64,000 nucleotides of DNA, from positions 1,388,722 to 1,452,721 of the forward strand of contig OY101121.1 of assembly GCA_956465555.1 (NCBI GenBank). The letters are read 5' to 3'. Of the stretch, positions 13,221-64,000 are shown piece after piece; positions within the stretch are counted from its first letter, which is position 1, and each line of letters begins with the position of its first letter. The position numbers and the translations under genes were made by a program. The stretch comes from Nitzschia sp. pyKryTriq1 (lineage: Eukaryota > Bacillariophyta > Bacillariophyceae > Bacillariales > Bacillariaceae). The notes below the pieces were generated by a model. The model searched no databases and was not told the origin of the DNA. It saw nothing but the letters and a program-made list of their open reading frames with translations.

Positions 13221-13240
13221 CTAGCGCGCACCGTCCACGA

Positions 13241-34360: not shown

Positions 34361-34455
34361 GCTAACCTCCCCCGACTTCTATCTAGAAAATCCTTTTCAC
34401 AAAATCACTTAAGCTCTGCTACAAAGGGCAACATACTCACGCTAATAGGCAATAT

Positions 34456-38556: not shown

Positions 38557-39935
38557 TTATTGTGGACCTTCAAGTGTCGCGTTGGCAAAGGACCGGAGTG
38601 TCTCATCAGTAAATCGAACCGTCGAAACGCTTTTCTGAACTTTGGCACCTATTTTCTCATAGAGGTTCAACGCTGGCGTATTCCAATCCAGGGCGACCCA
38701 ATAAAAGTTTTGACATCCCAGAGCCAAGCAGATCCTCGCCAGTGATTTCATCGCTAAACTACCACCACCCCGCTTTCGATAGGCGTCTTCCAAATAGAGA
38801 TCCTCCAAGTACAAAAAGCGCCCTTTGCCCAACTCATAGCCAAAATAAATAAATGCCATCCCACAGCTATAAGGCTCTGTCCCCTCAGGCACATCGGCGT
38901 CCTCGAGCAGTAAGCAGTAGAAGAGGGGCTCGTTCGAGCCTCCATCGCAGCGATAATTTTCGGGAGTCACATTGACAGCATCGGGCTCCTTTTCGTATAC
39001 GGCCAAGCCCTGGACTAGTCTCGCGATAGTATCCACATCATCTCCTGTCGAAAGCCGGAATCGAAAATGGTTGTTGGAGCTTGCAGCATTTACCACCGCC
39101 AAGCATTCCTTTACAGAATCATGGACTATAGGACGTGATAGCATTTTGCATTCCACGGGTTTGATGGCGTCGTCCTCAGAAGTCCCAGTATACTTTATCA
39201 TGGCAGACTGTTCCATCTGCAGAGTGAGCCATCCGTGCAATATCTCTGGCGGAAGCGGATCGTTTTCATACCAACTGGGGCAATCGATTCGCTGGTGGAC
39301 AAACAGGCGAGAGAGGTAAATAAATTCTTCGTCAGTTCGTCAAACTAGATACGCGTCCCGAACAGAAACACTTCACTACACCGCACTGACTGTTCTGTAC
39401 TTACTCTCCAATTCAACCTAGCACAATCTAGTTTGACAGCGATTTTTGCTAGTGGTCGAAGCATAGTCTTTTCCATGTCCTCGTGGTCGTGGTTTGGAAA
39501 ATCAAGTCGGTCAATGAACAAACACCGGCCATCCCACGTCGAATAGGCCATGTACATTGTCATTACCCCACACAATAGCCCATGGGCTCCAGCATGGAGA
39601 GAGTACACTCCAATACCAAAGAAGTAGGGAATCGGAGCCGGTATAGCACCACCTGGGGCCAAGGGAGCCCCTTGCGATGACCCCGAAGCAAATTCGAGCA
39701 AGGATTTGCACTCCTTTGGCGTCGTGGCGCGTTGCAGGCGAAAACCTTTTTCTTTCAAGCGGTTTCGCCACTGCTCATCGCTGCTTTCGCTGCTGTTCAG
39801 CACCTCGTCGATACAATCATTAATGGAAGAGACGGTAAGAGATTCCATGGATGGATTTCGCAAGTCTTGTGGAGAACTTGACGATGGTGATGAAATTGTA
39901 CCGCAACAGTTGTGGGTTGTGAGTTGTGACAACAT
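38557..39935 (-). CDS. Dual-domain SSAT-like polyamine acetyltransferase, copy 2
   Basis: Exon 1 is 39935-39405, the intron is 39404-39292 (GTAAGT...CACCAG), and exon 2 is 39291-38557, giving 421 residues, the same as copy 1 at 22627-23960. Intron phase and position are the same, and the linker after the junction (DCPSWYENDPLPPEILHGWL) aligns with that of copy 1. N-terminal degenerate GNAT: TMYMAYSTWDGRCLFIDRLD. C-terminal SSAT-like domain: LVQGLAVYEKEPDAVNVTP, IYFGYELGKGRFLYLEDLY, acetyl-CoA loop RKRGGG, LDWNTPALNLYEKIGAKV with the catalytic Tyr. No signal-like start, unlike copy 1, so the two may differ in location. It lies 2 kb from AdoMetDC fusion copy A, on the same strand. Confidence 0.85.
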
Positions 39936-40172
39936 CTCTCAGCAGGTTCACGGTTCAGCAATATGCAAGAAACAAATCCAACGCTACCGGAATGTGAACC
40001 GTTCACGGACAGACGATAGAATCTGAAAAAATCGTTTTTGAGGCAACAAAATTTGCCGCCGACATGCGACGCGTGGCGAAACGCGAAACGAAGAAAACCG
40101 CCAGTGTCAAAACTCAACATGCCGTCTATGATACTACTTCATTGGTATCGGAACAGAAGATGATAGCAAAGT

Positions 40173-40543
40173 AGTTTGAGAAGGCCCTGTATGCAGCACA
40201 TGGTTTTTGCTCAAGAATAAGCCCATCGTCTGACACAAACTTCTTCCCGGTAGAACTCTCCAGCTCAGTGATTGGTGCGTTTGCCTTTGGAGCTTCCATT
40301 TATGAGATTGGATTCCCGGGAGAGCCTCGCGATGACAGGCTCACCAATGTCAACGCGCAAATCAACTGGACATTCCCATTCTTTCTCTTTTGGAGAGTGC
40401 ATGAGCGAGCCGTGGATGAAAAGCGTGACGGCGGGCACATATTTGAAAATACCTGGGAGAATCAAGAAGAACTAAAGGCTTACGCGGTAGGACTGGGATT
40501 GGATCACGACAGTCTAGCCAATATGAAAGGTTCTCCTCTACTA
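40173..40543 (+). CDS. Unresolved small gene, central exon
   Basis: An open frame without an internal ATG at its 5' end, starting after a possible TAG acceptor (FEKALYAAHGF, then SSVIGAFAFGASIYEIGFPG, FPFFLFWRVHERAVDEKRDG, LGLDHDSLANMK). Codon content looks like protein, with one hydrophobic stretch. Near 40530 a GTTCTC donor-like word could splice to an AG near 40572 and continue to a stop at 40740. I do not recognise the family and cannot place the first exon. It lies between acetyltransferase copy 2 and AdoMetDC fusion copy A, on the opposite strand to both. Confidence 0.35.
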
Positions 40544-40820
40544 TGAACATTTTCAATTCGACGTTGCCGCGCCAGAAACAGATCCAACGATATGCACAAG
40601 AAGTCACGGATGCGTGGATTGCATATTTGATGCGTGGCGACTGCCTGAAACCACGAAATTTTTGCTTACGCCTCGGGATTCCTCTGGTGAGAAATGAGAT
40701 GACAGAAAACAACAAAAGAGAATGCGAGCTCGATGCATAAACTGACTCTAGAAATATTGAATTTAAAGCATAGATTGTTTTGAAATTAAAGTAGCTGCTA
40801 ATTCCCATCAGGCCCCGAAC

Positions 40821-43194
40821 CTAGCTGTTGCCTGCCGCTTCTTGCTGTCTTTTGGCCTGCACGAAATCCTCAAAAGATAGATCGAGACCTTCAAGATCAA
40901 AGCAGCTTCGTTTGTTGACGTTAGAACTATACATGATTGAATGCTGAACCGCACCGTCGAAAACGTTCATGGGTAACGAGCCATCTGGAGCCCGGACAAT
41001 TCGCCTTTGGATTGCAATGTTCGTGGAGATATCGTGCCGGAACCATGTCGCATTCGTATCCAAGGATTTGAAAGCAATCACGAATCGCCATGGATCCTCA
41101 AACCCAAGATGTCCCTGATCAGATAATAGAAAGTAAAGTAGACGCAATATTCACGTTAGATGTGGAAGGATAGTGACAGAAAGAAAGACTCGTCCGATGA
41201 ATGTGACGTACCTCCTCGTAGTCCCGGACGCTAGCAAAACCAGCTGCGACAAGCCCTTCAAGAAAGTTTTTGGCCGAGTCCATTTCTTTAGCCGGTGAAT
41301 CGGTTGCAGGAGCAAATCCCATACTTGTAACAAGGACACCGTCATCTGCCATGGATCCCTGCAAATCTTTCAAGACTTCCACTGACGTGTCGAAATTCCC
41401 AATGTATTCTCTGTGAAGGACGAGTAAACATGAAGTCACCGGTGAGCATTGGATGGAGGTCTACACTATACAAACCAATAACATGGAATGGATCTTACGC
41501 TTCATCAAAAACAATCACATCGAATGAGACGTCAGTTTTATCGTCTTGCTCTGCGAACCATTGTGCAACATCGCCGTAGTAAGTGGTAACTCGCGGGTCG
41601 TCCAGACAATTAGTGTAGTCGCTCCCGAGAAAGCTGCAGTCATGGTACTGGGGAAAATAAGTCATGGAAAAATTTAACAAGGCCTCTTCGTACTCCAGTA
41701 GAACCACACGTTTTACGGTTTTATGTTTCAGGAGCTCTCTCAAAATGGCTCCGTCTCCGAATCCAACAACAGCAATATTCTCAGGATTTTTGTGGGCAAA
41801 CATGGCGGGGTGGACAAACATTTCATAAAAGACGGCCTCCGATGACCGACGACTTTGCAAGACTCCGTTCGTAAAGACAATTCGATCTGGTTCAAAGACG
41901 GCTGGATGCTGTGCTTCATAGGATGATTCGTCTGTCAGCATACGCTTGTAGGATGCCAGCGTCTGATAAGGTGAACGAAGCACGTCATAAATGTCAAATC
42001 GATCTGGCCCAATGTACGCCGTAGCAATCTGCACAAAGAAACAGGACGAGAACTGTGTAAGTCGACACACTATCACTATTGGACACTTCGAATTATGAAT
42101 GTTGTCTCAAAACTCGCCTCTTTCTTGTAATCGGTCATGGCACCAATCGGAAATGTGAATAAATCTGTCAATTCCGCTTTTTTCTCCTCATTCTGTTCTC
42201 CCTTGGCATTCTGTTCTCCAAATCCCCGCACTTTGTAGGCCCAAATGGATTCGGGCATGTCCATCAAGTGGGTCGCACCTGGACGTGGCACGCTGAAGAG
42301 TTCTTCCACCTTGGAAACAATAGGAAGCAGCGAGTTGGGTCCACAGGTAAAGAGATCCATCGTGATGACGCCCTCGACGGGCCAGGTGTGGAAGGATACG
42401 TGACTTTCCAGAAGGACACCGACGCAACTGACTCCAGCAGGATGCAATCCATGACAGTGATAACTCAGTAAGGTCAAACCACATTCCCCGACGACATCCA
42501 GCATGGCATTTGCAAGTCGTTCTTCGGATGCCAGAAAGGATGCATCCACATTTCGAATATCCATGAGTAAATGCTGCCCAACAGGCAAGTGCTCTTCTTC
42601 GTCCTCTTCTCCTTCTTCGCCGTCGCCGGCGACCAATGCAGCACCTTTGCTGCTACTACTACTACCACCACCACGGCAGCTGGAACACTCGCTCGATGAG
42701 GAGTCGTCATCGGCTTGACATGCTTGTTCGGCATCCGCATCACCATCATGCGCAGACCCTTGTTCCGTGACGACCCATCGAGAGTTGATCGCAGCCGACC
42801 GTGCCGTGTCAAAGTTTTTCGATGTATACAAAGTTGGAGGTGGTTGTTTGCCATTCTTCAGGACCGGATTCGGGAGCTTCATGATATAATTCTTATTGTT
42901 GCTCTGCTGTAGCTCCCGATCCTCGAGTTCTCGTTGTTGCATCGTTACCGCCATGAGATATTCGAGGTGCGGATTAATAAATAACAACATTCGCGCCGTC
43001 CTTCCAACCGCAAAAGCGACCAGTGTGCATGCCAAGAGACTCAACAACAGGAACCTTTTGGAGACTCGAACCAACAGACCGGGATCCACTGATGCTGTCG
43101 CTGCCGGTCTCTCGGTGTGTCTGCTGCCATTAGTATGATTGGAGCAATGACCGTTTGGAATTTTCTCTCTGCTGCCCAAAGTCGTCTCTATCAT
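40821..43194 (-). CDS. AdoMet decarboxylase-aminopropyltransferase fusion, copy A
   Basis: Exons 43194-42118, 42028-41499, 41410-41212 and 41114-40821 give 699 residues. Residues 45-72 form a likely membrane anchor. Residues about 105-355 are bacterial-type AdoMet decarboxylase: GQHLLMDIRNV, then LLESHVSFHTWPVEG with the pyruvoyl-forming Ser264, His269 and Cys284 in FTCG, at the Ser63/His68/Cys83 spacing of the bacterial enzyme. An Asp/Ser/Gly-rich insert lies before it. The aminopropyltransferase follows (VFEPDRIVFTNGVLQS, RELLKHKTVKRVV). Unlike copies B and D, the AdoMet loop is GFGDG and the D-x-x-D pair is D-E-A-E. The C-terminus ends without a SET tail. Intron 1 appears to use a GC donor (GAG/GCGAGT). 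Family role: polyamine chain building; proposed for diatom long-chain polyamines. Confidence 0.88.
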
Positions 43195-44066
43195 TTTATT
43201 ATTTCTTCTCTTCTCTAGCGAGCTAGAGTAGATTATAATTTTAAAACAAACTTGAAAGGAAAGAAAAAACAAGCGAGTTTTGGGGTTGTGATAATTAGAT
43301 TAGCAAACACACAAACACCACAAGTTCTGTTGATGGATAATGGATACCTGGGCGTGTACAACGTAGACCTCTCCAGACTATTCATCATTCCCGTATGTAT
43401 CACACCGGTACCGGTACGGTACGACGTATTCTCGTTGTTTCGTGCGGGTCGGAGTAGTTGACGACACGAGAACCAACACGTGCCCTGGTGTTCCAACGGA
43501 CACACTATCGGTACACATCGTCATAAAAAATCACCTCTCGTCGTGCTCGCGGGCGCCGGCCGATGGATGGGCATTGGCCCGCTGGCGGCGGAAAGCGCGC
43601 GCTCTTGGTTCTGTTTGGGTTCCTTGTCTCTGGGTCGTGTGGGTCGACCGGCTGTTGCTCATTCATTCATCTTGCCGCTACGTCTACGCTACACGGTACC
43701 AGTACAGTCAGTACAAGAACCCGGTACCTGGTACTTGTACGGTACGCTGTCGCTGTGAAACTGTACTTGTACCTTGCTTGTACCGTACCAGCAGGTAGGT
43801 ACGTACCGGTACTGTACCGGTGACGGGTATGAGTACTGTACCGCGCGCGTTGGGACGGATTTTTCGGGTTTCCACCATCATCACGTCCACCATGGTCAAT
43901 GGTCAATGGTCACGCCTTTGTTGTTTGTTGCCTCTTCATGCATGAATGCATGTCAACAACAACGGTTACCTCCATTTTTCTTGTCTTTCTCCCTCTTGCT
44001 CCCCATCACCTAACATCATCTCTGGTAAATAAATACATACATAAATAGAGGATTGAGGGAGAGACC
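43195..44066. other. Divergent intergenic region with dense GTAC palindromes
   Basis: Between AdoMetDC fusion copy A and EXO70. Words such as GTACCGGTAC, GGTACC and TGTACTGTACC fill 43403-43425 and especially 43691-43845, one of the densest stretches in the window. Short open frames here are produced by the repeats. No gene is seen. Confidence 0.6.
43691..43845. repeat. TACCGGTA/GTAC palindromic word cluster
   Basis: About fifteen GTAC words in 155 bp, many extended to GGTACC, TACCGGTA or GTACTG, in the putative shared promoter of copy A and EXO70. The words are self-complementary, so orientation is not defined. Confidence 0.8.
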
Positions 44067-46607
44067 ATGGGGGCCACCACGGAGTCCAGGCGTCGGATCG
44101 ACGCCCTCGACAAGGCCCTGAAAAAGATGAAGACGTCGACCGCGGAAGCCTGCATGTGCTGCGATCAGTTGACCAAGAGAGCTCGTCAGTTGGACTCTCT
44201 TACGAGTCCGGCTTCGGATGCTTCGAGCTTGTTGTCCAAGGCCAGTAACAATTTGGGTTCCACTCTTGTGCTCATGAATGAAGCGCGAGAGAAATTTGAT
44301 ACCATTCGAGACTGTGAGCCGGCCATTGAGCGGTTGAAACGAGGCGTCGTTCAGATGCAGAATGAAAAGTCGGGCAAGGCAAATAAAGCCCGTCGAAATC
44401 CCTTTGAAGATGGGGAAAAAGATAGCACGGTGGTCTTGTCGGAGCAAGACGTCTATGCTGCGGCAGACTCCATGGAGATCATTCGGGATGCGTACGACTT
44501 TTTCATTGAGCGCAAGCACTGGCGGTCGACAGCTGCCGCTCTGGCGTCCTTGGAGCGCGTCCATCAAATGGGGGTCTCGTCCATGTGTACTCTAGGATCC
44601 TTCCATTTGCTAGATGCAGGACAGGCGGTTAGAATTAAGCGTGTGGTCAAACAAGAGGGGGAAGCCCATATTACGCCAGCCACGGAAACTGCGATACAGG
44701 TAAGCCGAATAATGCTGCTGCTCGAGCATTGGAAGTATACGTACTTTGATGTACGTGTTCTTATTTCTTTTTTTGACTTTCCTTTATGATTACTACGAGT
44801 AGACTCGAGAGCGATTGTCGGCAGCATTGCAGAATCGAGACTTGCTACGTAGCATTGGTGAATATGAAGAGTATCAACCGGTCGAACCTCGTTTGGTCAG
44901 AGAATTGCGTGGTATCTTTGAGGCCTTGGGTGGCAATGGATATCAACTAGGACCAGCGCCCAAGAACGAGCCTCCTGGTTTGGCCCATCACTTTGGCATT
45001 CCAGCCAACCGAGTTGTTCGTACGGAAAAGGTTGGATCCGGTGGCTATACGAACCTAGTGCAACGACCCCTAAAGACGGGGTTCCCGCATGTCGATGCCT
45101 ATGGAGAAGCCCGCAAACAAACTGCATTTGGTAGTATCGACAATTACTACAAGCGCGTCAAACAAGAACGAAAGCGGTTCGCGGAGAATTTTTCTACTGC
45201 CATTATGGATGCTGCGGACATGGCGGCACGAGATGCGGTTCGATGCTTGGAACATGCCATGGTGGTTGTGGCTGGCGAAAAGAATGTCTACCGAACTATC
45301 GTGTCACCTTCTTTGACCAAGATTGCGGATGAAGATGCTGTCAATGACGAAATCTCTCCGTATTATAGAAAGGCGTGTGCAGCTTCCTACTCGTATGTGG
45401 TGTCGTGCGTCGTCGATAAGGTATGTACACGTCGGTCGTTTCGAATGTGGAATATTTGAATGCTTTTATATCTGCTTTTGTTTCTCAACTACCAAACTTA
45501 TTACACTCTTGCAAGACTATGGATATCATTGAAACTGTCTTTTTGAAAGAAGGTTGCATCGGACATGCTTCTGGAGGCAAGGGCGATGCTCCGCCTCCCC
45601 TGACAGTGCGCCAAACTGCCTCGGCAGCGGCGGCTGGTTTGAGAATGCTTGACGGCGTCCGTATGTTGGGTCCTTCTCTTGCCAAACTTTGTGATATGCC
45701 CATCGGAGACGGAACTGAAGAGGAACCCAGTCTCGCTGCAATCTTGTGCATTGCCATCCACCGAACGACTGTCAAAAACGCAGCGCGTACTTTGGAGAAC
45801 CTTGCCAAAGCAATTCAAGAAGATCCAGTGAAGGGATCAGCTCAACGTGTCAAGGATGCTCGTGTGGCACCACTGACTTGCGATGTTGTCCGTGCCGTTC
45901 GTGCTGTGGCTACCTTTGATAGTGCGTACAAGTCGGTCTCGAAACGTCGGCAACTTCCCTGGGATCCCAATATGGGTGAAGAGGCGGGAGAGCTGGACGC
46001 GTTTGTTCGCTTTTTGGTCATGCGATTAGTGAATTCTCTTAAGGGCAAGGCACTCAATTACACCAAACACTCGGGTGATCTTGGGCAGGCGCGAAGTAGC
46101 ATGTTTATGATGAATAATACCTTTTATCTCCGCGACGAACTCGGCCCGAAAGCGGGAGCCGAGGATCCTTCGGAGTATCGGATTGAGAGTTCTTGGTTTG
46201 TGGACAAGGTCAACAAACTGTTCGAATCCGAAAAGAACAAGTACCTTGGGCATTGGGAGGTTCTCAACACACACTTGACCAGTGTCGAACACGACGAGCT
46301 CGAATACCAGAAGAACGATACTGTCTTGTCGCTTGACAGTGGTCGATTGATTAAGAGCCGATTTTCCGGGTTCAACGAAGATTTTGAAAAAATATTTGAA
46401 GACCACAAGGATCTCTGCGTTGTGGATCCTCGCCTACGAGATTTACTCCAGAAGGAAGTTGCCGGCGTGTTCCTTCCCCTGTATCGTATTTTCTACGACA
46501 AATACAGCAAAATTCGGTTCTCCAAAAAGCATCAGAACGAGTACACCAAATACGTTCCATACAGGATCGAGGAGATGTTGGATCATCTGTATGTCGATGC
46601 CGAGTAA
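44067..46607 (+). CDS. EXO70: Exocyst complex subunit EXO70
   Basis: Tethers secretory vesicles to the plasma membrane. Exons 44067-44699, 44803-45420 and 45516-46607, all phase 0, give 780 residues. Introns are 44700-44802 and 45421-45515. The N-terminal region is helical (KALKKMKTSTAEACMCC, LVLMNEAREKFDTIRDCEPA). Family blocks: FGSIDNYYKRVKQERKRFAEN, MFMMNNTFYLRDEL (the EXO70 NNxxYL block), SGRLIKSRFSGFNEDFEKIF, LRDLLQKEVAGVFLPLYRIF and the terminal KHQNEYTKYVPYRIEEMLDH LY (in two pieces), the lipid-binding C-domain. The length is a little above the usual 620-700. Start ACCATGGGGGCC. Confidence 0.93.
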
Positions 46608-46699
46608 ATAGTGATTTGATGATTCTACGGAAGAGCTAGTATATCATTTAGATCATTTCCGATAGATATTATTTCTTCAAGCAGGGGGTTTAATATCAT

Positions 46700-49011
46700 C
46701 TATTTGTTTAGCTTTGTGATAACATACTTATGCAAAACCTTGAAACTCTTTTGTTCCTTCCAGTCGGGCACCATGTTCTGGATATGATCCAAAATACCGT
46801 TGCCTCTCCACTGCGTCGAGATGCTGACATTGCATTCTTCCACGAGAAACTTGACTGCCTCAAGCTTTCCATTTTCTGCCGCTGCTAGAATAGGAGGGCG
46901 ATGGTCCCAGAAAACTTCATCCGTGGCTTCCGGAGATGCGCCGTGTTGAACCAAGTACTGTGCCACTTCCACTTGATCCGTGTAGCAAGACCATCCGACT
47001 GGTGATCCGACTAGAAGCAAAAGGCTGGTCCGGGGATCCGTGGCAAGCCATTCGACGATCTCGTGATGGCCTTTGCGAGCAGCCCATTCCAGAGGCGTGA
47101 AGCCTACCCACTTCATTTTCAAATCCGAGACCGATCCATTCACTTGACGGAGCGCGTCATTGATGATACTTTTGGCCATTGCTAGATCGGAAAGCGGGCC
47201 GCACGCCAAGCAGAGTCGCGAAACGGGGTCAAAATCGGACAAATCGTGCTTGAATGAACGAAATGCTAACGGTTCCGCCTCGCTGCACATTTGTTGTAAT
47301 ATTTCCGGGATAGCGCTTGGTGCATTCAAACCCCCCATCGAGTTCATTGATATCTTAAAAATGGTGTCACTCTTGAAGGCTCTGAAGCTGATGGCATTAA
47401 AGGCGGGATGTCTCGGTGACCACAAAATGCGAAGGTAACCTATTCCACAAGCTTCTGCAAACATATTGATGCCCTGTTGTTGCTGTTGCAAATTCTTCTC
47501 GCGGCGTCGCGCGCTAACTTTTGCGCTGCTTCCAATCATTGGCCGACTTGCCTCTGCTTCTGGCACGTAGGCAGCCTGAAGTTCCTTACATACTTTCTTA
47601 TGGTTCGGCCAGGCTGCACGCTGGCATTCGGGTCCACAATAGGATGCCCCTTTGCAACGAGAACAATCTTTTAGATCTTTGGGCTTGTGTTTCTTCCCAC
47701 AATTATCGCATGTTCGAGATTCTCCCCAGTTTATCAATTGGTTGATAGCAAGTTGTAAGTCTAGTGGATCGCTCGAACTCATAGCTTTAGTCAACTTGGC
47801 AACCTCATAGTCGAGTTCACTGCCAATGTAATTGTCCATAACCTCAATCACACTAGGCGCTGCGTTCTTCTCGAGGTGCATAAGCCCCCATCTTACAGTA
47901 AGGAGGATGGCTACCTTGGCGTTTCGCTCAGCTACCGTTCGATGGATCTTGTCGTTGATTAGATTCCATTGGTTAGTGCCGGGATTCGGCAATAAACGGA
48001 CCGCCTCGCTGGCCGAAGGAACGGTCTCCTTAAATTCCATAATTGTCTTGAGATAGCAACTGTACACATTCGACCACTCTTTCACCAAGGTCGCAGGTGC
48101 TTGTAGGTTGCTAAGTTCCTTGACCAATAGCTTAGAATGCAACACGCTGGACCAAAACATCTGAGGGTCCACATCCGCCAAGACCCCGGCGACAAACGCT
48201 CTTCTAGTTCGTTGAGGGCATGCACATTGCGGGCGTATCGGATTGTTTCCTGCGCTCCATAGTCCAAAAAGAATTCATGAGTGTTTCTTTTTGGCATGAC
48301 ATATCTGACTTCCATCGAATCCAAATAACTCTCGCAAGGGCATGGATAGATGTGAAACGTGGACCCTAGGACAGCCTGCAATCGGCCGCTAGGTGGACGA
48401 TCTTCGCGGCCAATACGAAAAGGTCGGAATTTGATCAGCACTGTGGCATTTCCTTGTTTTTGCTGTTTGATGAGGTGCTTGCCAACCTCTTCTAGCAATG
48501 TTTGTTGCGATGCTTTGAGGCAATTATTTTCAATATCAAGTCGTCCTTCGTAGGCATATTTGTTTAGTGCACGAGCGATGTTTAGGTCAGTGATTCGAAT
48601 CACGCAGTCTCCTCGAAACTGTTTGGTAGGATTCTCTCTGAAATAATCCTTCAAGGCAATCAGACTTCCACTTGATCGTTGTACCTTGTCGGGAGATGCT
48701 GGAATCATCCGTGCCGACATCCGTGCCCCTTGGATTTCATCCACCGTTGTGGCCATGAATTCCGTTGACCTCAAGTCTCGACGCCCTACACTTGTGGCGA
48801 GTTTCGTCTGTTCGAACACAACTCTCAGATTTTGGGGCTTGATGGATATTCTAGAAGGAACACCATCAATGCTGACAGCCAGGCGACCATCGGATTGAGG
48901 CGGGGCCGTTCCATCGTAGGACGCTGCCAAACCGTTCAAAGTTTGACCTTTGGCACTGGCCAAGCCATGAATACGACAAAGCACGTTTTTGGATTCGGAA
49001 TCGGATGGCAT
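46700..49011 (-). CDS. MYND zinc-finger and ankyrin protein, apparent frame break
   Basis: Two overlapping minus-strand frames appear to be one gene. The 5' part (49011-about 48190, ATG at MPSDSESK) has a domain with GLASAKGQTLNGLAASYDG and SIDGVPSRISIKPQNLRVV, and ends near NVHALNELEERL. The 3' part (about 48185-46700) has no usable ATG at its start, then a helical stretch, a MYND finger (CDNCGKKH, CSRCKGASYCGPECQRAAW, HKKVC) and ankyrin-like repeats (GFTPLEWAARKGHHEIVEWL, VEVAQYLVQHGASPEATDE). MYND fingers bind proline-containing peptides. No intron with good signals bridges the overlap (48082-48181), so a one-base frame difference, a sequencing error or two overlapping genes are all possible. 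Function unknown. Confidence 0.7.
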
Positions 49012-49583
49012 GGCGCGTCGATTGAAATATGTTATGTTATGTGGTGGGTGGGTGGGTATGTCACCGGCGGTTGGTGATCCAAATAGACTTATCAGCCTCG
49101 TTTTCTTAACACAACAGCAACATCAATGAGAGTCAGTCAAAAGGAAAAAGGAAGATGCCAAGAAATGCCAATATCTTTTTGTGAGAAAGTTCTCGTTCGT
49201 GTTTCGGCCTGCGACCTGTGCGGGATGAGAGAGCCTTGGCTCTCATTTTGAACTCCTCCCTCTCAACATGCGCAGGGAGGCGCGAGGAGGACGCGACGGA
49301 TCGAACTCTTCGACCAGACTTTCAACGGATGGACGCCAGACGCCATGATTGTTTTTGTGAGAATGAGAGGCTGACCATGATGCCTGATGTACCGGTAGAT
49401 CCCTGATGCCTGATATGTGCTGATGAGAAGCTCTCATCTCATTCACAAACATTGTCGACATCTCGCTACTGCTACGGATCAGCGACCTACCTCACATTCC
49501 GACATCTACCCATCGACTAGACTATAGCTAACATAGAAGCTAGCGATCAAGTTCCAAGAGTCCTCGGTTTCAGCGTTCGAACC
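49012..49583. other. Divergent promoter region
   Basis: Between the MYND gene and SYF1. Contains a (GTGGGTG)-type run at 49039-49056 and imperfect inverted repeats around GAGAGCC/GGCTCTC (49230-49245). No gene is seen. Confidence 0.5.
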
Positions 49584-52394: not shown

Positions 52395-53528
52395 ATCGAC
52401 TACGGTAGTCTAATGCGACGATTGTCGACAAGAGTTTACAGAGACAACGAGCGCGACAAGTTGGGTACTACTAGTAATCGACATCTCAACCAAAGATCAC
52501 GAGACTATTGCGACGACGAGGGAATCGAATACCACTAGTACTTGACGAACGACGATACGATATCGAAACGAAACATCATGCGAGCACGTTGCAATAGACG
52601 CATACGTCTCACATATAGTTCCGCCATATTCAAACATCAACGCATGTGCCAAGCACGTTTCGCGCTGCTACGTAAGATCCTTCGACCGACCCGACGCATG
52701 ATGATCTTTCTCTCGCTCGTCTACTCGAGCAACGGTACGGGCTATCCCTTCTACTAGTAGCGCTTTACTTGTACTACCAGCAGTAGCTGCTACTCCTACT
52801 CTCTCTCTAGAGTAGAGAGAGTACTACTCTCTCTCTACTCGCGTAGTAACAGCTAGCAGAGAGAGTTCATAGTTCATTCGCTCCAGTAATATAGCTCGCT
52901 TACTGGTAGAGTAGAGAAGTCGTAGTGGTCCAAGATAGAAAATATCTTGCATTCCCGCGACAAGACTCACTCACTCACTCTCAGTCTGGCGTCTGGCAAA
53001 GCTGGGCGCGCGTGCCGCCACCGCCGCGACGAGCGCGAACGAAGGAAGAAAGGAAAGCAAGGATCGATCCGTTATTTACCTGAACTCGCTACAGGTATGT
53101 ACTGACCAGGTACGGATCCTACGTAGAAATCCTGTACAACATCATTGGATGACCTCGCATTCACTGCTCTGCGCTCTGCGAAAAGCATGTCCCTCATCAT
53201 CACTGACTTGTCGTTTGACCATGATGGGAATGTAAACAGCACCGAGAAGCCCAGAAACATTTGTCTACCCGGAACGACTCATTTCTATCACCCTCTGGCC
53301 GTTTGGGTTACCGTTCATGCGGATGCTTCTGTGAGTATTTGGTGGCACGCAAGTACCCGTAGTCTAGTAGACGACGAATCGAATCGAAGAATCATCATCA
53401 ACTTCTCGGAAGCAGCGCAAGGAAATATATCAATACATACGTACTTTTTTGTTGATTATTTTTTGATCACTCTCTCCGATCCACCTTGCCATTATTTCCC
53501 TCCACACACAAAGGTTGCCGCGTAAAGA
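52395..53528. other. Intergenic, low-complexity
   Basis: CTCTCTACT/AGTAGAGAG words recur between 52780 and 52920 and can pair with each other. A 126-codon frame at 53145-53525 has no family marks and ends just before the next gene; I do not support it. No gene is seen. Confidence 0.45.
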
Positions 53529-55915
53529 ATGGACTTGTCGGTAGTAGCGGCGGTAGGCTCGTTTGCCATCTCCGAACGAGTCTTGAAACCCAAGGCAACC
53601 GCACTGTTTTTTTTGGGCTGTATCCTGGCGTATGATTTGACCACCAAGACACACGACATTACAAGTCTGAGAGTCTATAGAGGTAAGCAACAATCACATC
53701 ATTCCCAGTAGCATGGCACAATGCCACGCGTTGACTTGTACATATCAAATCGAATGGATTGATTGGTGGATGGATTCATTCATTGACTCATTCATTCATT
53801 CATTCTCATCATGTGGTGCCGTTTTGCTTTTCAAAAACAGGACCTGCTCTTTTGGCGTTTACCTTGATGATGTGTGCTTACTCATTACGGACATGGCGGC
53901 GGAACGGAATAGCCTGCGATGAACTCTTATTTTTACCGGGAACATTACATGGTCATGAACATGGTGTGGAAGGTCCTTTGATCGAAATGCCGGAACAGCA
54001 TCAGTCGGTGTCGCCCTCGGAACAAATTTTGTCCCAGCAATCGTCACCCAACAATAATAGTCACCGCCAATCGCAAGCGATCCAACGATCTGCTTCGAGC
54101 CCTATACGACAATCTCAACCAACAAAATCAGAGGCTGATTTAGCAGCTGGCGGTGGTGCCGGCCCTAGGAGACCATCGCCTCCAACCTTTCGACAGCGAA
54201 GAGCGCATTCTGAGGACGAGGCAGGTTTGCTGGCAATTGAAAATAGCTCATCAATGGAAGGGGAATCGTCGTCAATGCAGCAAGAGGCTACGGGTGACAG
54301 TGCTCTGAACGCAAGTGATCAACCAGGAAGCTGGGATATAGAGGTCGAAGAAGAAGAGGGAATAGGTCAGATACAAGGGCTCTTGCATCGAGCATCGACG
54401 AACGATACTTCGGGTGCAGTGGATGGCTCCGATTTGCAGCAGTCTTCTGGCTCTGGCATCATCCACCGATGGAGGGAAAATCATCCTCGCCTCTCTAGAC
54501 TTGGGACCTTTTTCTTTTTTCGATCCTCAGCTACGAGCGCGCAAGAAGATGCCGCTTACGCGCCATCCGGTCCTGCAGTATTTGGAGCCGGCTTGGACCT
54601 GAGCATGCCCGTCTTGTTCAACTTTCATCTTTTCATTGAAGCCTATAATCATATGCAGGGCCCAGACGGATCCGATGCTCCCGCCAAAATCCTTCCAATT
54701 ATCTTTTTGAGCGTTTTGATCGTCAGAACGGTGATCCCACCCAGTCGACGTATGCGTTTCTGGGGGACACTGAAATTTGCGTTTACTGCTCCCCTGCATC
54801 ATGTCCGTTTTCGGGACGAATTCATTGGCGAAGTTATGACTTCATGGGTACGACCGGGCCAAGACCTCTTCTTTGCCTTGTCCTACTACTCCACCGTCAT
54901 TTGGGGCACAGTATCCGGAAAGTACGGTCTGACCGATAGCGGTCTCATGCTGGAAGAGTCGTGGCTGCTGCACAATGTCATCATGCCATCATTTGCCATT
55001 TTACCACTCTGGTTGAAGTACCTCCAAACGCTTCGACAGGCCTACGACAGCAACAAGCGATGGCCACACCAAGCGAATTCTTTCAAATATCTCTCAGCTA
55101 CATTAGTGGTTATCTATGCCATTACACACCCAGAAAATCGAACTTCGCCTTGGTGGATAGCGTCATTTGCTTTTGCACTGCTATATCAAATATATTGGGA
55201 TGTTTTCGTCGACTGGGAGCTCTTTGAAATTCAACCGCAAATCCAACTGATAGACTCGGAAAGCGAATCTTGGTGCGCACGAGTGTCGAGCTTTCGGCCA
55301 AGTTCCCATACCCTATTGTCCTTGCAAATGTACATCGTACAGCCATTGCTCGACCAGTATCAGCGTGTTCGCGCAGCCATTCCCAGTTGGAGACAAATTC
55401 AACTACGACAAAAACGATTGTACAAGACGGAAGCTTTCTATTGGAAGATATTTGCTTTCAATGCAGTTTCACGATTTACGTGGATGTTCTGTTTTATTCC
55501 GGCCTACCATGTCTCGAGAAGTCGTACCGTTCTTACCTCAACGAGCGATGTAAATTCCTACTGGGGCGTCTTGCTGCCCGTAACAGAGATTGTGCGACGA
55601 ACACTGTGGGGCTTCCTTTTTGTGGAACGAGAAACGATCAAACTCATGGAAGCGGATGCAAAGTACGCACGCGTCGCAGAGGCGGAAGATGAACTCGATA
55701 GCGATGAAGACGGGGACGCGGATTCCAAATTGGGCGATAGAAGCTTCCGAAGTCAGCTGCTGCCCACGTGGCTGGATAATCAACAGCAAGTCGCACACAG
55801 CGCCGCGACGTCCCGAGCCAAGCAACGCGACCATTTCATGAGGCAGCTTTTTGTGGTGGAGCTGTACGGTTGGGCAGCCGCCTTTGTGCTTTTAGGGTGC
55901 TGGGCCGCAAGCTAG
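53529..55915 (+). CDS. EXS-domain membrane protein, XPR1/ERD1-like
   Basis: Exon 1 is 53529-53682, the intron is 53683-53840 (GTAAGC...AACAG), and exon 2 is 53841-55915, giving 742 residues. Two membrane segments at the start are followed by a Ser/Gln/Glu-rich disordered stretch (about 95-290). The EXS domain then runs to about 670: LSYYSTVIWGTVSG, HNVIMPSFAILPLWLKYLQTL RQAYD (in two pieces), FALLYQIYWDVFVDWELFE (the EXS WDxxxDW block), WKIFAFNAVSRFTWMF and LLPVTEIVRRTLWGFLFVERE (EXS RRxxWxxxRxE block). There is no SPX domain at the N-terminus, so it resembles yeast ERD1 rather than full XPR1/SYG1. Family members export or recycle phosphate and act at the Golgi or plasma membrane. Confidence 0.87.
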
Positions 55916-56049
55916 TATGTAAGATATCACGAAAGGTCAGAAGTGTGCAAACATGACATGACATTACTGGTACTATGGTACGGTATATATTATCTATGGT
56001 ACGGTATATATTATGTAGCGCTTCTCTTGTACAAGCTTGTGGTAGAAAG

Positions 56050-56981
56050 TTATTTGTACAAGTACGCCCTCTCGTACTCCGTGATGCTTCCGGTCCCACC
56101 GGCGCACTGTTGTTTTAGCCCTTCGACATCTTCTGACCAGCCTTTGATGTTGATACCGGTCATACCAAGATAATTGTCGAGCAGCTCTTCGCCTTTGGTG
56201 ATGTCACGAAGGGGGGATGCACTGGAATAGAAATGAGATTGTCTTGCAGCAGCAGGGTTGTAGACGACGCCTGCAAGATTATCCTCTAGAATTTCAGGTG
56301 GGATTTTCTTTGGATTTGCATTCTCTTCTGTGATGGTCAAATTGTGACCAACATTGTTGGATCCCGCACAACCATGGTTAATGAAAGTATGAAGTGTCGG
56401 ATCTACAAACACCTCCAGACGCCCCTATAAAATAGTTTTGGAAGGAGGAAAACATTGAGTGGTCTGAATCAATCAAGCGTACAAGTACTGTACTAGCGTT
56501 GAAATTTTCCCACTGCTCTCGTCATCTCTCACTTACCCGGCGGCTGAACGAGTGACCGTAGCCATGCGCATAGATCTCCAATGCCTCTGCCCACCAACCC
56601 TCGGTTTCCTCATCGCTGAAGAGATTCGCGTGATGCTGTTCCATTTTAATCATCAAATCGTAGGATTTTGACGGTATGTGAATGATGTGAATCAATTCTT
56701 CAAGTCCAATGTACGATAGACGAGGAATATTTTCCTTCGCGAAGACTCCACGTCCCGCATGCTCCCCCTGGCTGCTGGGGCGCACCTCTAAAACAGAAAG
56801 AGGAAGGCCCAACCTTTCGGGATCGAATCCACGTCCATTCGCACATTGTGCATTATTCGGATATGCACGACAAAAAGCATATTCGAAAGAACAAAGAGAA
56901 GTGGTACTCCGTCGCCCTTTTTATTGTCGTTGGGACTTTTCGACATCTGTCTACTTCCTTCTAAGGATGGTTTGCACATGA
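56050..56981 (-). pseudogene. SET-domain remnant of a polyamine-fusion paralog
   Basis: From the right, 56981-56885 encodes the same first 31 residues as fusion copy B (MCKPSLEGSRQMSKSP...). At 56884 the sequence jumps to the region just before a SET module (FCRAYPNNAQC, aligned with YCRGHPEVAAC of copy B). The join is out of frame and no ATG opens the SET frame. The SET part has two exons (about 56884-56537 and 56424-56050; intron GTAAGT...TATAG) with a complete core: GRGVFAKENIPRLSYIGLEE, FINHGCAGSNNVGHNL (NHxC) and GEELLDNYLG. The decarboxylase and aminopropyltransferase parts are missing. SET domains methylate lysines. Either a deletion remnant or a SET gene that starts elsewhere. Confidence 0.72.
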
Positions 56982-57857
56982 TCTCAATGGATGAGGTCTA
57001 AAAGCATAATAGTATTTTGTGAGCCACTCTCTCTGATGGTGCTGTTCTATCTTCCCCGTTGCTTACTTGCGTACTTGGTAATCATTTTTTGTCTGAAGGC
57101 GGGAACCTCGCATCTCGGAGAAAGAAAGATCCAAAAAGCAGCACGTGCCGGCCTCCACCTCGTTCTTATAGATTTCGCGCGCTGTGCCCTCCTGCTTACT
57201 GCTACCGGTATCCTACCGGTACCTTGTTGAGGTACCGGTACATAAAATTTCTTGTACAGCGTACCAGAAATCGCGCGTATCTCTCTGTAGTAGAGAGTGA
57301 TTAGATAGACCCCTCCTGCAGCATCCTATTTAAGGTTGAGAGCTCGTTTATCTCTGTCGCTACCGGTATATCGGTAGCACTGATGCATGGCTCGTTTTTA
57401 CTCTTCTCGAAAGAATTTTTTTAATTATGCCCCACATGAATGAAATAATATTCTTGCACGTGCCATTTATCTCACTTCTTGTCTTTCTTCTTCAGCACGT
57501 GCTGTGCAAGTGTGGCGCGTGTGTGGGTTGGAATGTGGTACTACATACTGCTACCAGTAAGTACAGTAATAGTACTACATCACTAATTTTTATGGCAAGG
57601 CAAAGCAATCAGTTGTATGAAATCGTTTTATTGTACTCGGCGCTGCCAGCTATGCATGGAAGGGCATACGTGCTTCCTGGCAGCAGCCCTATCTTTTGTT
57701 GAATGAATCATCCATCGCGCAAGTGAGCTCGATGAAGCATGCAAGCACAGATCTACTGAGGTTCTATCGTCTCTGTACGTACCGGTAGACTACAATACCA
57801 GTACCAGTACAGTAGATGTGCAGATTAGCGCTGATAATCCCCCGTACGTTTGAAAAA

Positions 57858-57882
57858 AGTCCACTGATTCAATCAGTGGACT
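57858..57882. repeat. 12-bp-arm perfect palindrome
   Basis: AGTCCACTGATT and its exact complement are separated by one base, about 235 bp beyond the stop of copy B in its 3' direction. It could form a hairpin in a transcript or a cruciform in DNA. Repeated in unit 2 at 61514-61538. Confidence 0.85.
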
Positions 57883-57969
57883 GTGCTCTCGACCGTCAAG
57901 GTAGTAACTAAATTAGACAGGGCACTTTCGCTGCTTTGCGATATACCGGTATACTACTACCACTACCAG

Positions 57970-57994
57970 TAGAGAGAGAGAGAGAGAGAGAGAG
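57970..57994 (+). repeat. (AG)n microsatellite
   Basis: About a dozen AG dinucleotides, also present at the equivalent place in unit 2 (about 61626-61650) with the same length as far as I can count, which supports a very recent duplication since such tracts change quickly. Confidence 0.8.
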
Positions 57995-58117
57995 ATGATT
58001 ATTGATCATACCGTAGGGTACTACTTGTACTACCGGTACCTGTAGACAAGGTCGATACAGGTACAGTACAGTACTGGTGAAGGGAGCAGTACTGGTACAC
58101 ATGATATTCTTGACAGG

Positions 58118-60635
58118 TTATGGAATGGCTCTGGCGTAGGACGAGTAGTGACGACTCTGCCTCTCCGCCGCAGGATTGTAGCCACCCGTTGTTTCCTCAA
58201 AAAAACTAAGAAAAGCTGGTACTGCCGAGGTTATAGCAGAGATAGCGGTCGCCATGTTATTACCCAAGAGCGAGGCACAGCGCTGGTCCATTTCCGTTAT
58301 CAAGTTGAACGACCTTGGCGGCATATAAATTATGGGAACTTTTTCTTGTAGTCCAACGCAAGACATCTGAGGGACGTCATCCTTGGCGAGTACTCCAAGG
58401 CTTGAGTTTTCTCGCGACTCAATCTCCAAAACTGAAGCAGGACGACACACCTTCTTTTCTGGATTGAGGCCATGTCCTTCCACACAAGCTGCCACCTCTG
58501 GATGTCCTCGGCAATAGACAACCTCACTACCCTTGTAAGGGTATTGGTAAGATTTCATCGTGGCGCTGTCAAAGAAACGCAAAGGTGACCTTCCATCCAG
58601 ACTGGGTAGTACTCGTATACGGATCTTAAGTGCAAAAGTTGCCTCATCGTCAAACCATTGTGCCTGTGACTCGAGAGACTTGAACGCAACTACGAACTGC
58701 CAAGGAAGAAAGAAACCCCCTCGTGCCTAGAAAGAGGAATGAACACTTGAAAGTGAGTGCTGAAAAGTCTTCTTCAATTAAAAGTCAGACAGGGTATGTC
58801 TTTCTCACCTCTTGGTAGTCTCGGATGCCTTCAAACCCCAAGTCTGTTAGGCTTCTCAAAAAATTTGCGCGGTTCTTATTGGAAGTAAGGTGCTCAGCTG
58901 GATCATGCAGCAACGGCGACTGACCAACTTGAGCGACAACTATCCCAGTGTCATTCAATGCGCGCGGAAGAGATCGCAGGAATGGACCACCGTCATAAAG
59001 CGCTTCAACAAAAGAAATCTGAATCTGAGGGTCCCTAAAAATAAAAGGCCAAAATCATCTCACTGCCTGTCAGAAAACATCAAAATAGTAACGGTATAGA
59101 TCAATCCTTCCACTCCAAAGCACTTACAGAGCATCCATGATGATGACATCAAATGATTCTTCAACACGGTCCTCCTCATTCCCACTAAATCGATCAATGA
59201 ACCACGCAAATGCATCTTCGCAATACAGTTCAACTCTTGGATCCTCAAAGCAACTGTCAGCGCTGCCCTCAAGCATGCTACAGTCGCTCCAATCAGGTAG
59301 ATACTCTCTCGACAGTTTTACCATCTGCTCGTCAATTTCGATCATGACAACCTTCTCGACTGTTTTATGTTTGAGTACTTCTCTCAATGTTGCACCTTCG
59401 CCTCCCCCAATAATGGCAACGCGTTTTGGATTGGAATGGGCAAACATGGCTGGATGAACCAACGCCTCGTGGTAGGCTGCATCACCTGACCTTCTCGATT
59501 GCATCACTCCATCAAGAAAAACTATACGATCCGGCTGAAAAAGCTCTGGATGGTCCGCTTCGTAGGATCCGTCGTTTTTCAACGACTTCTCGTACCCGTC
59601 AACGCTTTGAGTCACAGGCAACAATACATCATAAATGTCAACACGCTGGAAATCAGTTTGCGCGGATACAACCTACCAAGGACAAGAACGGAACGTTAGT
59701 ATGTCACACAAAATATTCATGAAGATGTGACATGATTGACGATGTCTAACCGTTACCTTTTCTTTCATATCTATCATTTCACCGATCGGAAAGGCATAGA
59801 AATCAGTGGCCGCGGAATCACCGCTTGTGTCTTCGCCTGAAAATCCTCGGAGCTTGTGAGCCCAGATCGCATGAGGTTTCTGATCGGAGCCCTCATTTGC
59901 AATACCAAAGAGCCTCTTAGCCACAGGGACAACAGGCAACAGCGACTCATCTCCACATGTGTACAAGTCCAGGGTAATAACTCCCTCGACAGGCCAGGTG
60001 TGGAATGAAACGTGACTTTCCAGTAAGACTCCAGCGCAGCTGACTCCGCTCGGTTTGAGACCGTGACAATGATACGACAGCAAAGTCAAACCGCATTCTG
60101 CGACCAGATCCAACATTGCGTGGGCCAGACGCACTTGAGAGTTGAGGAAGTCCCCCTTGACATGTTCGATGTCCATGAGCAAGTGTTGACCTTGTGGAAG
60201 GTGCTCGGATTCATCGTGAAGTAGAGAATTATTGACTTCTTGCAAATTTGGACGAACTTCGTGGCACTCATTATATGGGAGATCAACGCATTGCCTTCTC
60301 CCTTCCTCCGTAACAACCCAACGAGAATTGGCCACCGACCTTGCTGTGTCAAAATGTTTCGAAGCATACACCGTGGGTGGCAAAAATTTTCCTAAAGGGA
60401 GGACAGGGTTAGGAAGTTTCAAGTTAAGAGGACTTTCCAAGCCTTCAGCGTTGACGCTTGCTCTTTTTACACTGCGCACGAGATAGACTTTTGCAGACAG
60501 CCCAGTTGTGAAAGCTATAGTGGCACTAGTAACCAGGGTCCAAAGAACAAAGAGAAGTGGTACTCCGTCGCCCTTTTTATTGTCGTTGGGACTTTTCGAC
60601 ATCTGTCTACTTCCTTCTAAGGATGGTTTGCACAT
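58118..60635 (-). CDS. AdoMet decarboxylase-aminopropyltransferase-SET tail fusion, copy B
   Basis: Exons 60635-59757, 59672-59128, 59034-58809 and 58726-58118 give 752 residues; phases match copy A. Anchor helix about 25-45 (VPLLFVLWTLVTSATIAF). AdoMet decarboxylase: GQHLLMDIEHV, LLESHVSFHTWPVEG with pyruvoyl Ser207, His212, Cys227 at the bacterial Ser63/His68/Cys83 spacing. Aminopropyltransferase: LFQPDRIVFLDGVMQSRRSG, AdoMet loop GGGEG in IIGGGEGATLREVLKHKTVE, catalytic DALDP formed across intron 2. GGGEG is typical of thermospermine synthases (ACL5), suggesting that product class. The last 130 residues align with the start of a SET domain (SVLEIESRENSSLGVLA) but skip the NHxC core and stop at SYARAIP. 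The start lies in the other duplication unit. Confidence 0.9.
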
Positions 60636-61773
60636 GATCTCAATGGATGAGGTCTAAAAGCATAATAGTATTTTGTGAGCCACTCTCTCTGATGGTGCTG
60701 TTCTATCTTCCCCGTTGCTTACTTGCGTACTTGGTAATCATTTTTTGTCTGAAGGCGGGAACCTCGCATCTCGGAGAAAGAAAGATCCAAAAAGCAGCAC
60801 GTGCCGGCCTCCACCTCGTTCTTATAGATTTCGCGTGCTGTGCCCTCCTGCTTACTGCTACCGGTATCCTACCGGTACCTTGTTGAGGTACCGGTACATA
60901 AAATTTCTTGTACAGCGTACCAGAAATCGCGCGTATCTCTCTGTAGTAGAGAGTGATTAGATAGACCCCTCCTGCAGCATCCTATTTAAGGTTGAGAGCT
61001 CGTTTATCTCTGTCGCTACCGGTATATCGGTAGCACTGATGCATGGCTCGTTTTTACTCTTCTCGAAAGAATTTTTTTAATTATGCCCCACATGAATGAA
61101 ATAATATTCTTGCACGTGCCATTTATCTCACTTCTTGTCTTTCTTCTTCAGCACGTGCTGTGCAAGTGTGGCGCGTGTGTGGGTTGGAATGTGGTACTAC
61201 ATACTGCTACCAGTAAGTACAGTAATAGTACTACATCACTAATTTTTATGGCAAGGCAAAGCAATCAGTTGTATGAAATCGTTTTATTGTACTCGGCGCT
61301 GCCAGCTATGCATGGAAGGGCATACGTGCTTCCTGGCAGCAGCCCTATCTTTTGTTGAATGAATCATCCATCGCGCAAGTGAGCTCGATGAAGCATGCAA
61401 GCACAGATCTACTGAGGTTCTATCGTCTCTGTACGTACCGGTAGACTACAATACCAGTACCAGTACAGTAGATGTGCAGATTAGCGCTGATAATCCCCCG
61501 TACGTTTGAAAAAAGTCCACTGATTCAATCAGTGGACTGTGCTCTCGACCGTCAAGGTAGTAACTAAATTAGACAGGGCACTTTCGCTGCTTTGCGATAT
61601 ACCGGTATACTACTACCACTACCAGTAGAGAGAGAGAGAGAGAGAGAGAGATGATTATTGATCATACCGTAGGGTACTACTTGTACTACCGGTACCTGTA
61701 GACAAGGTCGATACAGGTACAGTACAGTACTGGTGAAGGGAGCAGTACTGGTACACATGATATTCTTGACAGG

Positions 61774-64000
61774 TTATGGAATGGCTCTGGCGTAGGACGA
61801 GTAGTGACGACTCTGCCTCTCCGCCGCAGGATTGTAGCCACCCGTTGTTTCCTCAAAAAAACTAAGAAAAGCTGGTACTGCCGAGGTTATAGCAGAGATA
61901 GCGGTCGCCATGTTATTACCCAAGAGCGAGGCACAGCGCTGGTCCATTTCCGTTATCAAGTTGAACGACCTTGGCGGCATATAAATTATGGGAACTTTTT
62001 CTTGTAGTCCAACGCAAGACATCTGAGGGACGTCATCCTTGGCGAGTACTCCAAGGCTTGAGTTTTCTCGCGACTCAATCTCCAAAACTGAAGCAGGACG
62101 ACACACCTTCTTTTCTGGATTGAGGCCATGTCCTTCCACACAAGCTGCCACCTCTGGATGTCCTCGGCAATAGACAACCTCACTACCCTTGTAAGGGTAT
62201 TGGTAAGATTTCATCGTGGCGCTGTCAAAGAAACGCAAAGGTGACCTTCCATCCAGACTGGGTAGTACTCGTATACGGATCTTAAGTGCAAAAGTTGCCT
62301 CATCGTCAAACCATTGTGCCTGTGACTCGAGAGACTTGAACGCAACTACGAACTGCCAAGGAAGAAAGAAACCCCCTCGTGCCTAGAAAGAGGAATGAAC
62401 ACTTGAAAGTGAGTGCTGAAAAGTCTTCTTCAATTAAAAGTCAGACAGGGTATGTCTTTCTCACCTCTTGGTAGTCTCGGATGCCTTCAAACCCCAAGTC
62501 TGTTAGGCTTCTCAAAAAATTTGCGCGGTTCTTATTGGAAGTAAGGTGCTCAGCTGGATCATGCAGCAACGGCGACTGACCAACTTGAGCGACAACTATC
62601 CCAGTGTCATTCAATGCGCGCGGAAGAGATCGCAGGAATGGACCACCGTCATAAAGCGCTTCAACAAAAGAAATCTGAATCTGAGGGTCCCTAAAAATAA
62701 AAGGCCAAAATCATCTCACTGCCTGTCAGAAAACATCAAAATAGTAACGGTATAGATCAATCCTTCCACTCCAAAGCACTTACAGAGCATCCATGATGAT
62801 GACATCAAATGATTCTTCAACACGGTCCTCCTCATTCCCACTAAATCGATCAATGAACCACGCAAATGCATCTTCGCAATACAGTTCAACTCTTGGATCC
62901 TCAAAGCAACTGTCAGCGCTGCCCTCAAGCATGCTACAGTCGCTCCAATCAGGTAGATACTCTCTCGACAGTTTTACCATCTGCTCGTCAATTTCGATCA
63001 TGACAACCTTCTCGACTGTTTTATGTTTGAGTACTTCTCTCAATGTTGCACCTTCGCCTCCCCCAATAATGGCAACGCGTTTTGGATTGGAATGGGCAAA
63101 CATGGCTGGATGAACCAACGCCTCGTGGTAGGCTGCATCACCTGACCTTCTCGATTGCATCACTCCATCAAGAAAAACTATACGATCCGGCTGAAAAAGC
63201 TCTGGATGGTCCGCTTCGTAGGATCCGTCGTTTTTCAACGACTTCTCGTACCCGTCAACGCTTTGAGTCACAGGCAACAATACATCATAAATGTCAACAC
63301 GCTGGAAATCAGTTTGCGCGGATACAACCTACCAAGGACAAGAACGGAACGTTAGTATGTCACACAAAATATTCATGAAGATGTGACATGATTGACGATG
63401 TCTAACCGTTACCTTTTCTTTCATATCTATCATTTCACCGATCGGAAAGGCATAGAAATCAGTGGCCGCGGAATCACCGCTTGTGTCTTCGCCTGAAAAT
63501 CCTCGGAGCTTGTGAGCCCAGATCGCATGAGGTTTCTGATCGGAGCCCTCATTTGCAATACCAAAGAGCCTCTTAGCCACAGGGACAACAGGCAACAGCG
63601 ACTCATCTCCACATGTGTACAAGTCCAGGGTAATAACTCCCTCGACAGGCCAGGTGTGGAATGAAACGTGACTTTCCAGTAAGACTCCAGCGCAGCTGAC
63701 TCCGCTCGGTTTGAGACCGTGACAATGATACGACAGCAAAGTCAAACCGCATTCTGCGACCAGATCCAACATTGCGTGGGCCAGACGCACTTGAGAGTTG
63801 AGGAAGTCCCCCTTGACATGTTCGATGTCCATGAGCAAGTGTTGACCTTGTGGAAGGTGCTCGGATTCATCGTGAAGTAGAGAATTATTGACTTCTTGCA
63901 AATTTGGACGAACTTCGTGGCACTCATTATATGGGAGATCAACGCATTGCCTTCTCCCTTCCTCCGTAACAACCCAACGAGAATTGGCCACCGACCTTGC
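61774..64000 (-). CDS. AdoMet decarboxylase-aminopropyltransferase-SET tail fusion, copy D (partial)
   Basis: Copy of B shifted by 3,656 bp: exons 63413->64000 (5' end beyond the window), 63328-62784, 62690-62465 and 62382-61774. The translated parts are identical to copy B, including the pyruvoyl Ser context ESHVSFHTWP, the GGGEG loop, DALDP and the truncated SET tail. The visible first exon begins inside VANSRWVVTEEG; the anchor helix and initiator lie past 64000. If the second unit is complete, the N-terminus would be encoded by sequence beyond about 64196 and may differ from that of copy B. Confidence 0.9.

Follow-up and report, generated by a model that had tools for sequence, protein, structure and literature searches.

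Why genes fusing an S-adenosylmethionine (AdoMet) decarboxylase (AdoMetDC) to an aminopropyltransferase recur within a short distance, in the company of acetyltransferase and methyltransferase sequences, is the question raised by a 64,000-nucleotide stretch of the Nitzschia sp. pyKryTriq1 genome (GenBank assembly GCA_956465555.1, contig OY101121.1, positions 1,388,722 to 1,452,721 of the forward strand; hereafter the window, numbered from its first nucleotide). These genes probably belong to one small family of polyamine fusions of the diatom type, which has expanded on the spot by local duplication and partial deletion. A first-pass annotation of the window had reported three minus-strand fusion genes, and all three loci were found at the positions it gave:

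40821 to 43194, minus strand: gene 1, AdoMetDC–aminopropyltransferase fusion; exons 43194-42118, 42028-41499, 41410-41212 and 41114-40821; 699 amino acids (spliced model, Pfam, PDB)
58118 to 60635, minus strand: gene A, AdoMetDC–aminopropyltransferase fusion with a C-terminal SET remnant; exons 60635-59757, 59672-59128, 59034-58809 and 58726-58118; 752 amino acids (spliced model, Pfam, PDB)
61774 to 64000, minus strand: gene B, second copy of gene A, its 5′ end outside the window (repeat and protein identity)

The splice models of genes 1 and A place the decarboxylase first and the transferase second in one continuous spliced frame, interrupted in each gene by three introns of 82–97 nt at matching positions. 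Both domains pass the Pfam cut-offs in both genes. AdoMet_dc scores 76.4 and 75.3 bits in the two genes (cut-off 25 bits); Spermine_synth, scanned by exon, scores 65.1 bits in gene 1 and 101.6 bits in gene A (cut-off 22.9 bits), and 120.9 bits in a further Pfam scan of gene A. Each of the two genes has one strong hydrophobic peak near the N-terminus (1.98 and 1.88, judged from hydrophobicity only), and gene 1 has no SET part. The border of intron 1 of gene 1 (42117-42029, minus strand) is GC-AG, that of the corresponding intron of gene A being GT-AG.

Genes of this kind are already known from diatoms, and those of the window add members to it. According to published work, diatoms possess several AdoMetDC–aminopropyltransferase fusions, some with a histone-methyltransferase-type domain, which have been proposed for the synthesis of long-chain polyamines (PMC6356823, PMC12803844, PMC3820600, PMC10968388, PMC12533330, PMC12029483). 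The annotation had likened the window fusions to the sort proposed for this role, in agreement with the literature (PMC6356823, PMC12803844, PMC12533330). P. tricornutum has three such fusions (among PMC6356823, PMC12803844, PMC3820600, PMC10968388) and Nitzschia inconspicua has 32 fusion proteins with this transferase domain (PMC12803844). Bacterial AdoMetDC–aminopropyltransferase fusions have been tested biochemically, and the diatom fusions are named as needing study (PMC12803844).

One sign of local duplication is the relationship of genes A and B, which lie in a direct tandem repeat with a period of 3656 bp:

56883 to 60538, no strand assigned: first unit of the repeat
60539 to 64000, no strand assigned: second unit, of which 3462 of 3656 bp are visible before the window end cuts it

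Positions 56883-60344 and 60539-64000 are 99.94% identical over 3462 bp, with two mismatches, one of them at the very edge of the repeat, and no gaps; the visible 654 residues of gene B match exactly within the gene A protein. A and B are therefore one gene in two copies. Three loci exist, as annotated, but they represent two distinct genes, and three independent fusions are ruled out. Since the repeat boundary falls within coding sequence, each intact gene of the array crosses a unit junction. The second copy may reflect a very recent duplication, homogenisation of the copies or duplication in the assembly. No report of tandem duplication of these diatom fusion genes was found in the open-licence literature. 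Near-identical tandem copies of this sort may inflate fusion counts in assemblies.

SET sequences lie at the ends of genes A and B and to the left of the array:

56050 to 56884, minus strand: intact SET domain, exons 56884-56537 and 56424-56050, the probable 3′ end of another, rearranged fusion gene (Pfam)
56883 to 56979, minus strand: copy of the 5′ coding end of gene A, 31 identical codons starting with the ATG at 56979, whose frame does not continue into that of the adjoining SET domain
58118 to 58525, minus strand: remains of a decayed SET domain closing gene A (alignment to the intact SET domain)
61774 to 62181, minus strand: the same SET remains closing gene B

The SET domain at 56884-56050 is complete, scoring 25.8 bits in Pfam (cut-off 22.4 bits) over positions 1-104 of the 105-position profile; its second exon by itself reaches 14.0 bits, below the cut-off, and a PDB search with the intact domain matched no chain. 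Genes A and B do not contain a complete domain. A Pfam scan of both found no SET match, and their C-terminus aligns with the intact domain at 38% identity over 90 residues, only the first 90 aligning. The later core motifs, which we take to be NHxxxxN and the GEEL-Y stretch, are missing from the remnant. Genes A and B are thus ruled out as live methyltransferases. Because an intact SET domain stands by the array and a decayed one ends genes A and B, the ancestral gene is likely to have had the order decarboxylase–transferase–SET, with the SET arm here decayed or separated. The annotation had added that the locus would ‘perhaps methylate’; this gains a better physical foundation, since SET sequence is present, but the full domain is out of frame and that of genes A and B has decayed. 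Diatom-specific SET methyltransferases are known from Nemoto 2020, as cited in PMC11554505 and PMC11151724; what they have in common with the window sequence is a SET domain in a setting linked to silica or polyamines.

The copied stretch beside the intact SET domain also includes the upstream region of gene A. It is conceivable, but unlikely, that this chimera functions as a gene of its own, with a SET methyltransferase expressed from the copied promoter and 5′ end of gene A and a short, newly arisen intron joining the two parts. In favour of this, the reading frame of the SET domain is uninterrupted in its two exons, which are separated by an ordinary intron, and the domain exceeds the Pfam cut-off; moreover, 27 possible GT-AG splices would bring the chimera back into frame, some of them 83 or 86 nt long, the size of the real introns. 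Against it, a GTAAGT-type donor occurs in none of the 27, chance should produce many in-frame joins, and the frame read unspliced from the ATG at 56979 meets a stop after 63 codons.

Another explanation, to which we give tentative and clearly lesser credence than to local duplication and partial deletion, is that both the A/B copy and the chimera are assembly artefacts: the genome would contain one gene A, or two alleles that the assembly strung together, as well as an ordinary complete fusion with the intact SET domain at its end. The extreme identity of the two units is what such an error would leave, as are a repeat edge running through coding sequence and a SET domain that is intact in itself and yet joined out of frame. 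On the other hand, no N occurs anywhere in the window, the junctions included; where one unit meets the next within gene A, the reading frame stays intact and the introns are normal; and recent tandem duplication is frequent in eukaryotes.

A second, older duplication probably links gene 1 to the gene A lineage, and here the two domains have fared differently. The decarboxylase domains of both genes are of the bacterial type (class 1b), with a domain match and S, H and C in register. They score 77.3 and 79.9 bits with NCBIfam TIGR03330 (cut-off 75.65). The gene A domain aligns ungapped over about 83 residues with the bacterial AdoMetDC chains 2iii and 1vr7 of the PDB, E-S-H, H and C falling on their counterparts. 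Genes 1 and A both keep S, H and C, presumably the self-cleavage and catalytic residues of AdoMet decarboxylase; among 42 prokaryotic relatives (two viral hits were left out of this set) these three positions are conserved in 41, 42 and 41, respectively. The two window decarboxylases are 75% identical (74/99), and that of gene 1 appears intact by motif.

The transferase domains were compared with prokaryotic relatives obtained with a transferase-only query, which yielded at least 582 confirmed candidates, 80 prokaryotic loci being kept, and five viral loci. The alignment included 79 of the 80 prokaryotic loci, after one with a frame under 250 amino acids and the five viral loci were dropped; 41 positions were conserved in at least 90% of these 79 relatives. 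Gene A keeps 36 of the 41 and has the aminopropyltransferase motifs. Gene 1 keeps 23 and does not have the full set of motifs, with the domain still recognisable at its Pfam score: YHE has become FYE, GGGEG has become GFGDG, another invariant D has become E, and, in an alignment made by hand, the DP after the catalytic (DxxD) region has become EY. The annotation had credited all the fusions with complete decarboxylase and transferase marks; this holds for the decarboxylase of gene 1 but not for its transferase, so that complete transferase marks in every copy are ruled out. The transferases of genes 1 and A are 44% identical (116/264). The terminal branch of gene 1 is 2.0 in the transferase tree, against 0.49 for gene A; in the decarboxylase tree the values are 0.07 and 0.51. 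To judge by these branch lengths, the transferase of gene 1 has evolved rapidly and its decarboxylase has not.

For gene 1, the likeliest readings are that it provides decarboxylated AdoMet or that its transferase has been altered. A more specific scenario seems very improbable: gene 1 would be a changed enzyme that makes decarboxylated AdoMet, its fast-evolving transferase feeding partner enzymes or transferring aminopropyl groups to protein lysines (e.g. those of silaffins) instead of making free polyamines, and the SET arm would have been released as a separate gene under the copied gene A promoter.

For the gene A transferase, the best PDB matches are the aminopropyltransferases 7xif (2.1e-33) and 1uir (3.3e-33), both of them, we assume, prokaryotic. 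Lower matches include 2b2c (7.9e-27) and 2o05 (8e-18), presumably the nematode and human spermidine synthases, and thermospermine synthase 6bq2 (8.4e-23). These matches tilt clearly towards prokaryotes, but do not separate cleanly from the eukaryotic ones. Gene A, of which a single exon was scanned, did not reach the full-length NCBIfam transferase cut-offs.

In quick FastTree trees of the two window sequences and their prokaryotic relatives, built with no eukaryotic outgroup, genes 1 and A pair with each other for both domains (support 1.0 and 0.998) and stand on long branches. Searches of prokaryotic and viral contigs with the entire fusion yielded no relative, the patterns of two of the searches having fallen in poorly conserved stretches. 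A decarboxylase was found within the fetched stretch, some stretches ending at contig ends, in 42 of the 80 prokaryotic transferase loci, and is fused in frame with the transferase in two of the 80. These two in-frame fusions (L041 and L067) come from an Anaerolineae metagenome-assembled genome and a metagenome-assembled genome labelled Chryseobacterium gleum. The pattern would agree with one bacterial-type acquisition followed by duplication, as published for diatoms.

The window genes resemble the diatom AdoMetDC–aminopropyltransferase(–SET) fusions in their domains and domain order, bacterial-type enzymes and N-terminal hydrophobic segment, and in the occurrence of SET in some members. They differ in their SET sequence, which has decayed in genes A and B and survives intact only as a separate fragment, in the combination of an intact decarboxylase with a degenerate transferase in gene 1, and in the near-identical tandem copies. 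The bacterial fusions likewise have the decarboxylase followed by the transferase in one chain; they lack the introns, the probable N-terminal anchor and the SET part. Michael 2011 (FEBS Lett 585:2627) is said to have described diatom fusions of AdoMetDC and aminopropyltransferase, sometimes with SET.

Besides the fusions, the window contains two related acetyltransferase genes:

38557 to 39935, minus strand: SSAT-family tandem-GNAT gene, likely exons 39935-39405 and 39291-38557 (PDB, Pfam)
22627 to 23960, plus strand: SSAT-family paralogue, likely exons 22627-23163 and 23232-23960 (identity to the gene at 38557-39935)

In these models the acceptor was picked among six in-frame options for the gene at 38557-39935; there are eight in-frame acceptors for that at 22627-23960. 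An SSAT-like gene had been annotated 2 kb from gene 1. An SSAT-family gene does adjoin gene 1, but it is longer than supposed, probably with two exons, and lies about 0.9 kb away. It belongs to the SSAT family of GNAT proteins (Pfam Acetyltransf_1, 45.2 bits); its C-terminal domain matches SAT2 (6.3e-26) and SAT1 (8.9e-23) in the PDB, followed by NATA1-type and thialysine acetyltransferases, and it differs from SAT2 and SAT1 in an extra GNAT-like N-terminal half. Because thialysine and ornithine acetyltransferases also match in the PDB, its substrate need not be a polyamine. The two acetyltransferase genes, about 14.6 kb apart, share the same exon break and are 44.6% identical over 240 residues of the C-terminal part and 39.6% over 91 residues of the N-terminal part. 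A major facilitator superfamily gene (25366-26844, plus strand; Pfam MFS_1, 122.5 bits) lies near the acetyltransferase gene at 22627-23960; NorA (9.7e-10) is a better PDB match for it than the polyamine transporter SLC18B1 (0.0096), which barely matches, and this does not favour a role in polyamine transport.

The annotation had read the neighbourhood as a synthesis-plus-modification unit. In its full form, this would be a functional polyamine locus in which the fusions, SSAT-like acetylation and SET methylation are kept and used together for silica. The fusion, GNAT and SET genes are indeed neighbours. In addition, a diatom thialysine N-acetyltransferase gene rises when silicon is returned (PMC11151724), and one fusion of Entomoneis vertebralis rises under aluminium, with silicification also changed (PMC12533330); these genes need not correspond to those of the window. 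Such a locus nevertheless seems improbable. The proximity of fusion to fusion and of GNAT to GNAT is explained by paralogy through local duplication, unrelated genes lie in between, the SET sequence is decayed or out of frame, and the GNAT matches are not limited to polyamine acetyltransferases. For the adjacency of a fusion and an acetyltransferase there is just one instance, with no control to set against it. The genes may yet form a silica polyamine unit under common regulation. Given the A/B repeat, the pairing of genes 1 and A in both trees and the acetyltransferase paralogues, most of the clustering is best explained by local duplication.

Under the preferred reading of local duplication and partial deletion, each gene of the family would code for a hydrophobic segment at the N-terminus, probably a membrane anchor, followed by a self-cleaving AdoMet decarboxylase of the bacterial type and an aminopropyltransferase, to which the ancestral form added a SET methyltransferase. 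In genes A and B, the decarboxylase domain would turn AdoMet into decarboxylated AdoMet, from which the fused transferase would add aminopropyl to a polyamine; plausibly, repeated addition would give the long-chain polyamines of silica. In this history, gene 1 and the A lineage would have separated long ago, a rearrangement would have left the intact SET end beside the copied 5′ end of gene A, and A and B would have been duplicated very recently, or else in the assembly.

Several observations weigh against this picture. Both window decarboxylases have V where all 42 prokaryotic relatives have E, and of 24 decarboxylase positions conserved in those relatives they match 15 (gene 1) and 14 (gene A). 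The five departures of gene A from the 41 conserved transferase positions include two that are invariant in 79 of 79 relatives. The single-anchor reading is not clean, because the second-highest hydrophobic stretch of gene A (1.63) falls inside the SET remnant. Finally, as discussed above, errors in the assembly may account for the tandem copy and the chimera.

Which enzymes produce the long-chain polyamines of diatom silica has yet to be proved. Here, one family is found in three adjoining states: decarboxylase and transferase followed by the dead remains of SET, decarboxylase accompanied by a transferase that has degenerated, and a SET domain that is intact but detached. Such natural variants lend themselves to assigning each step to its domain, and the locus looks like a gene family in flux, ordinary as a kind and informative in detail.

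Between the fusions lie the EXO70, SYF1 and EXS genes that had been annotated there, recovered with Pfam, and also a gene with a MYND zinc finger and ankyrin repeats (46703-48181, minus strand). Ankyrin proteins are discussed in work on diatom silica (PMC11151724, PMC12533330). Other repeats in the window include short-period tandem repeats in steps of about 10 bp, in blocks at about 405-706 and 2764-3113 that are 75-92% identical to each other. A two-copy tandem repeat of about 115 bp (95.8%) at 13240-13473 falls at the 3′ end of a frame labelled HECT-like ligase by reading of the sequence only, and another, of about 103 bp (85.7%), lies at 34450-34656.

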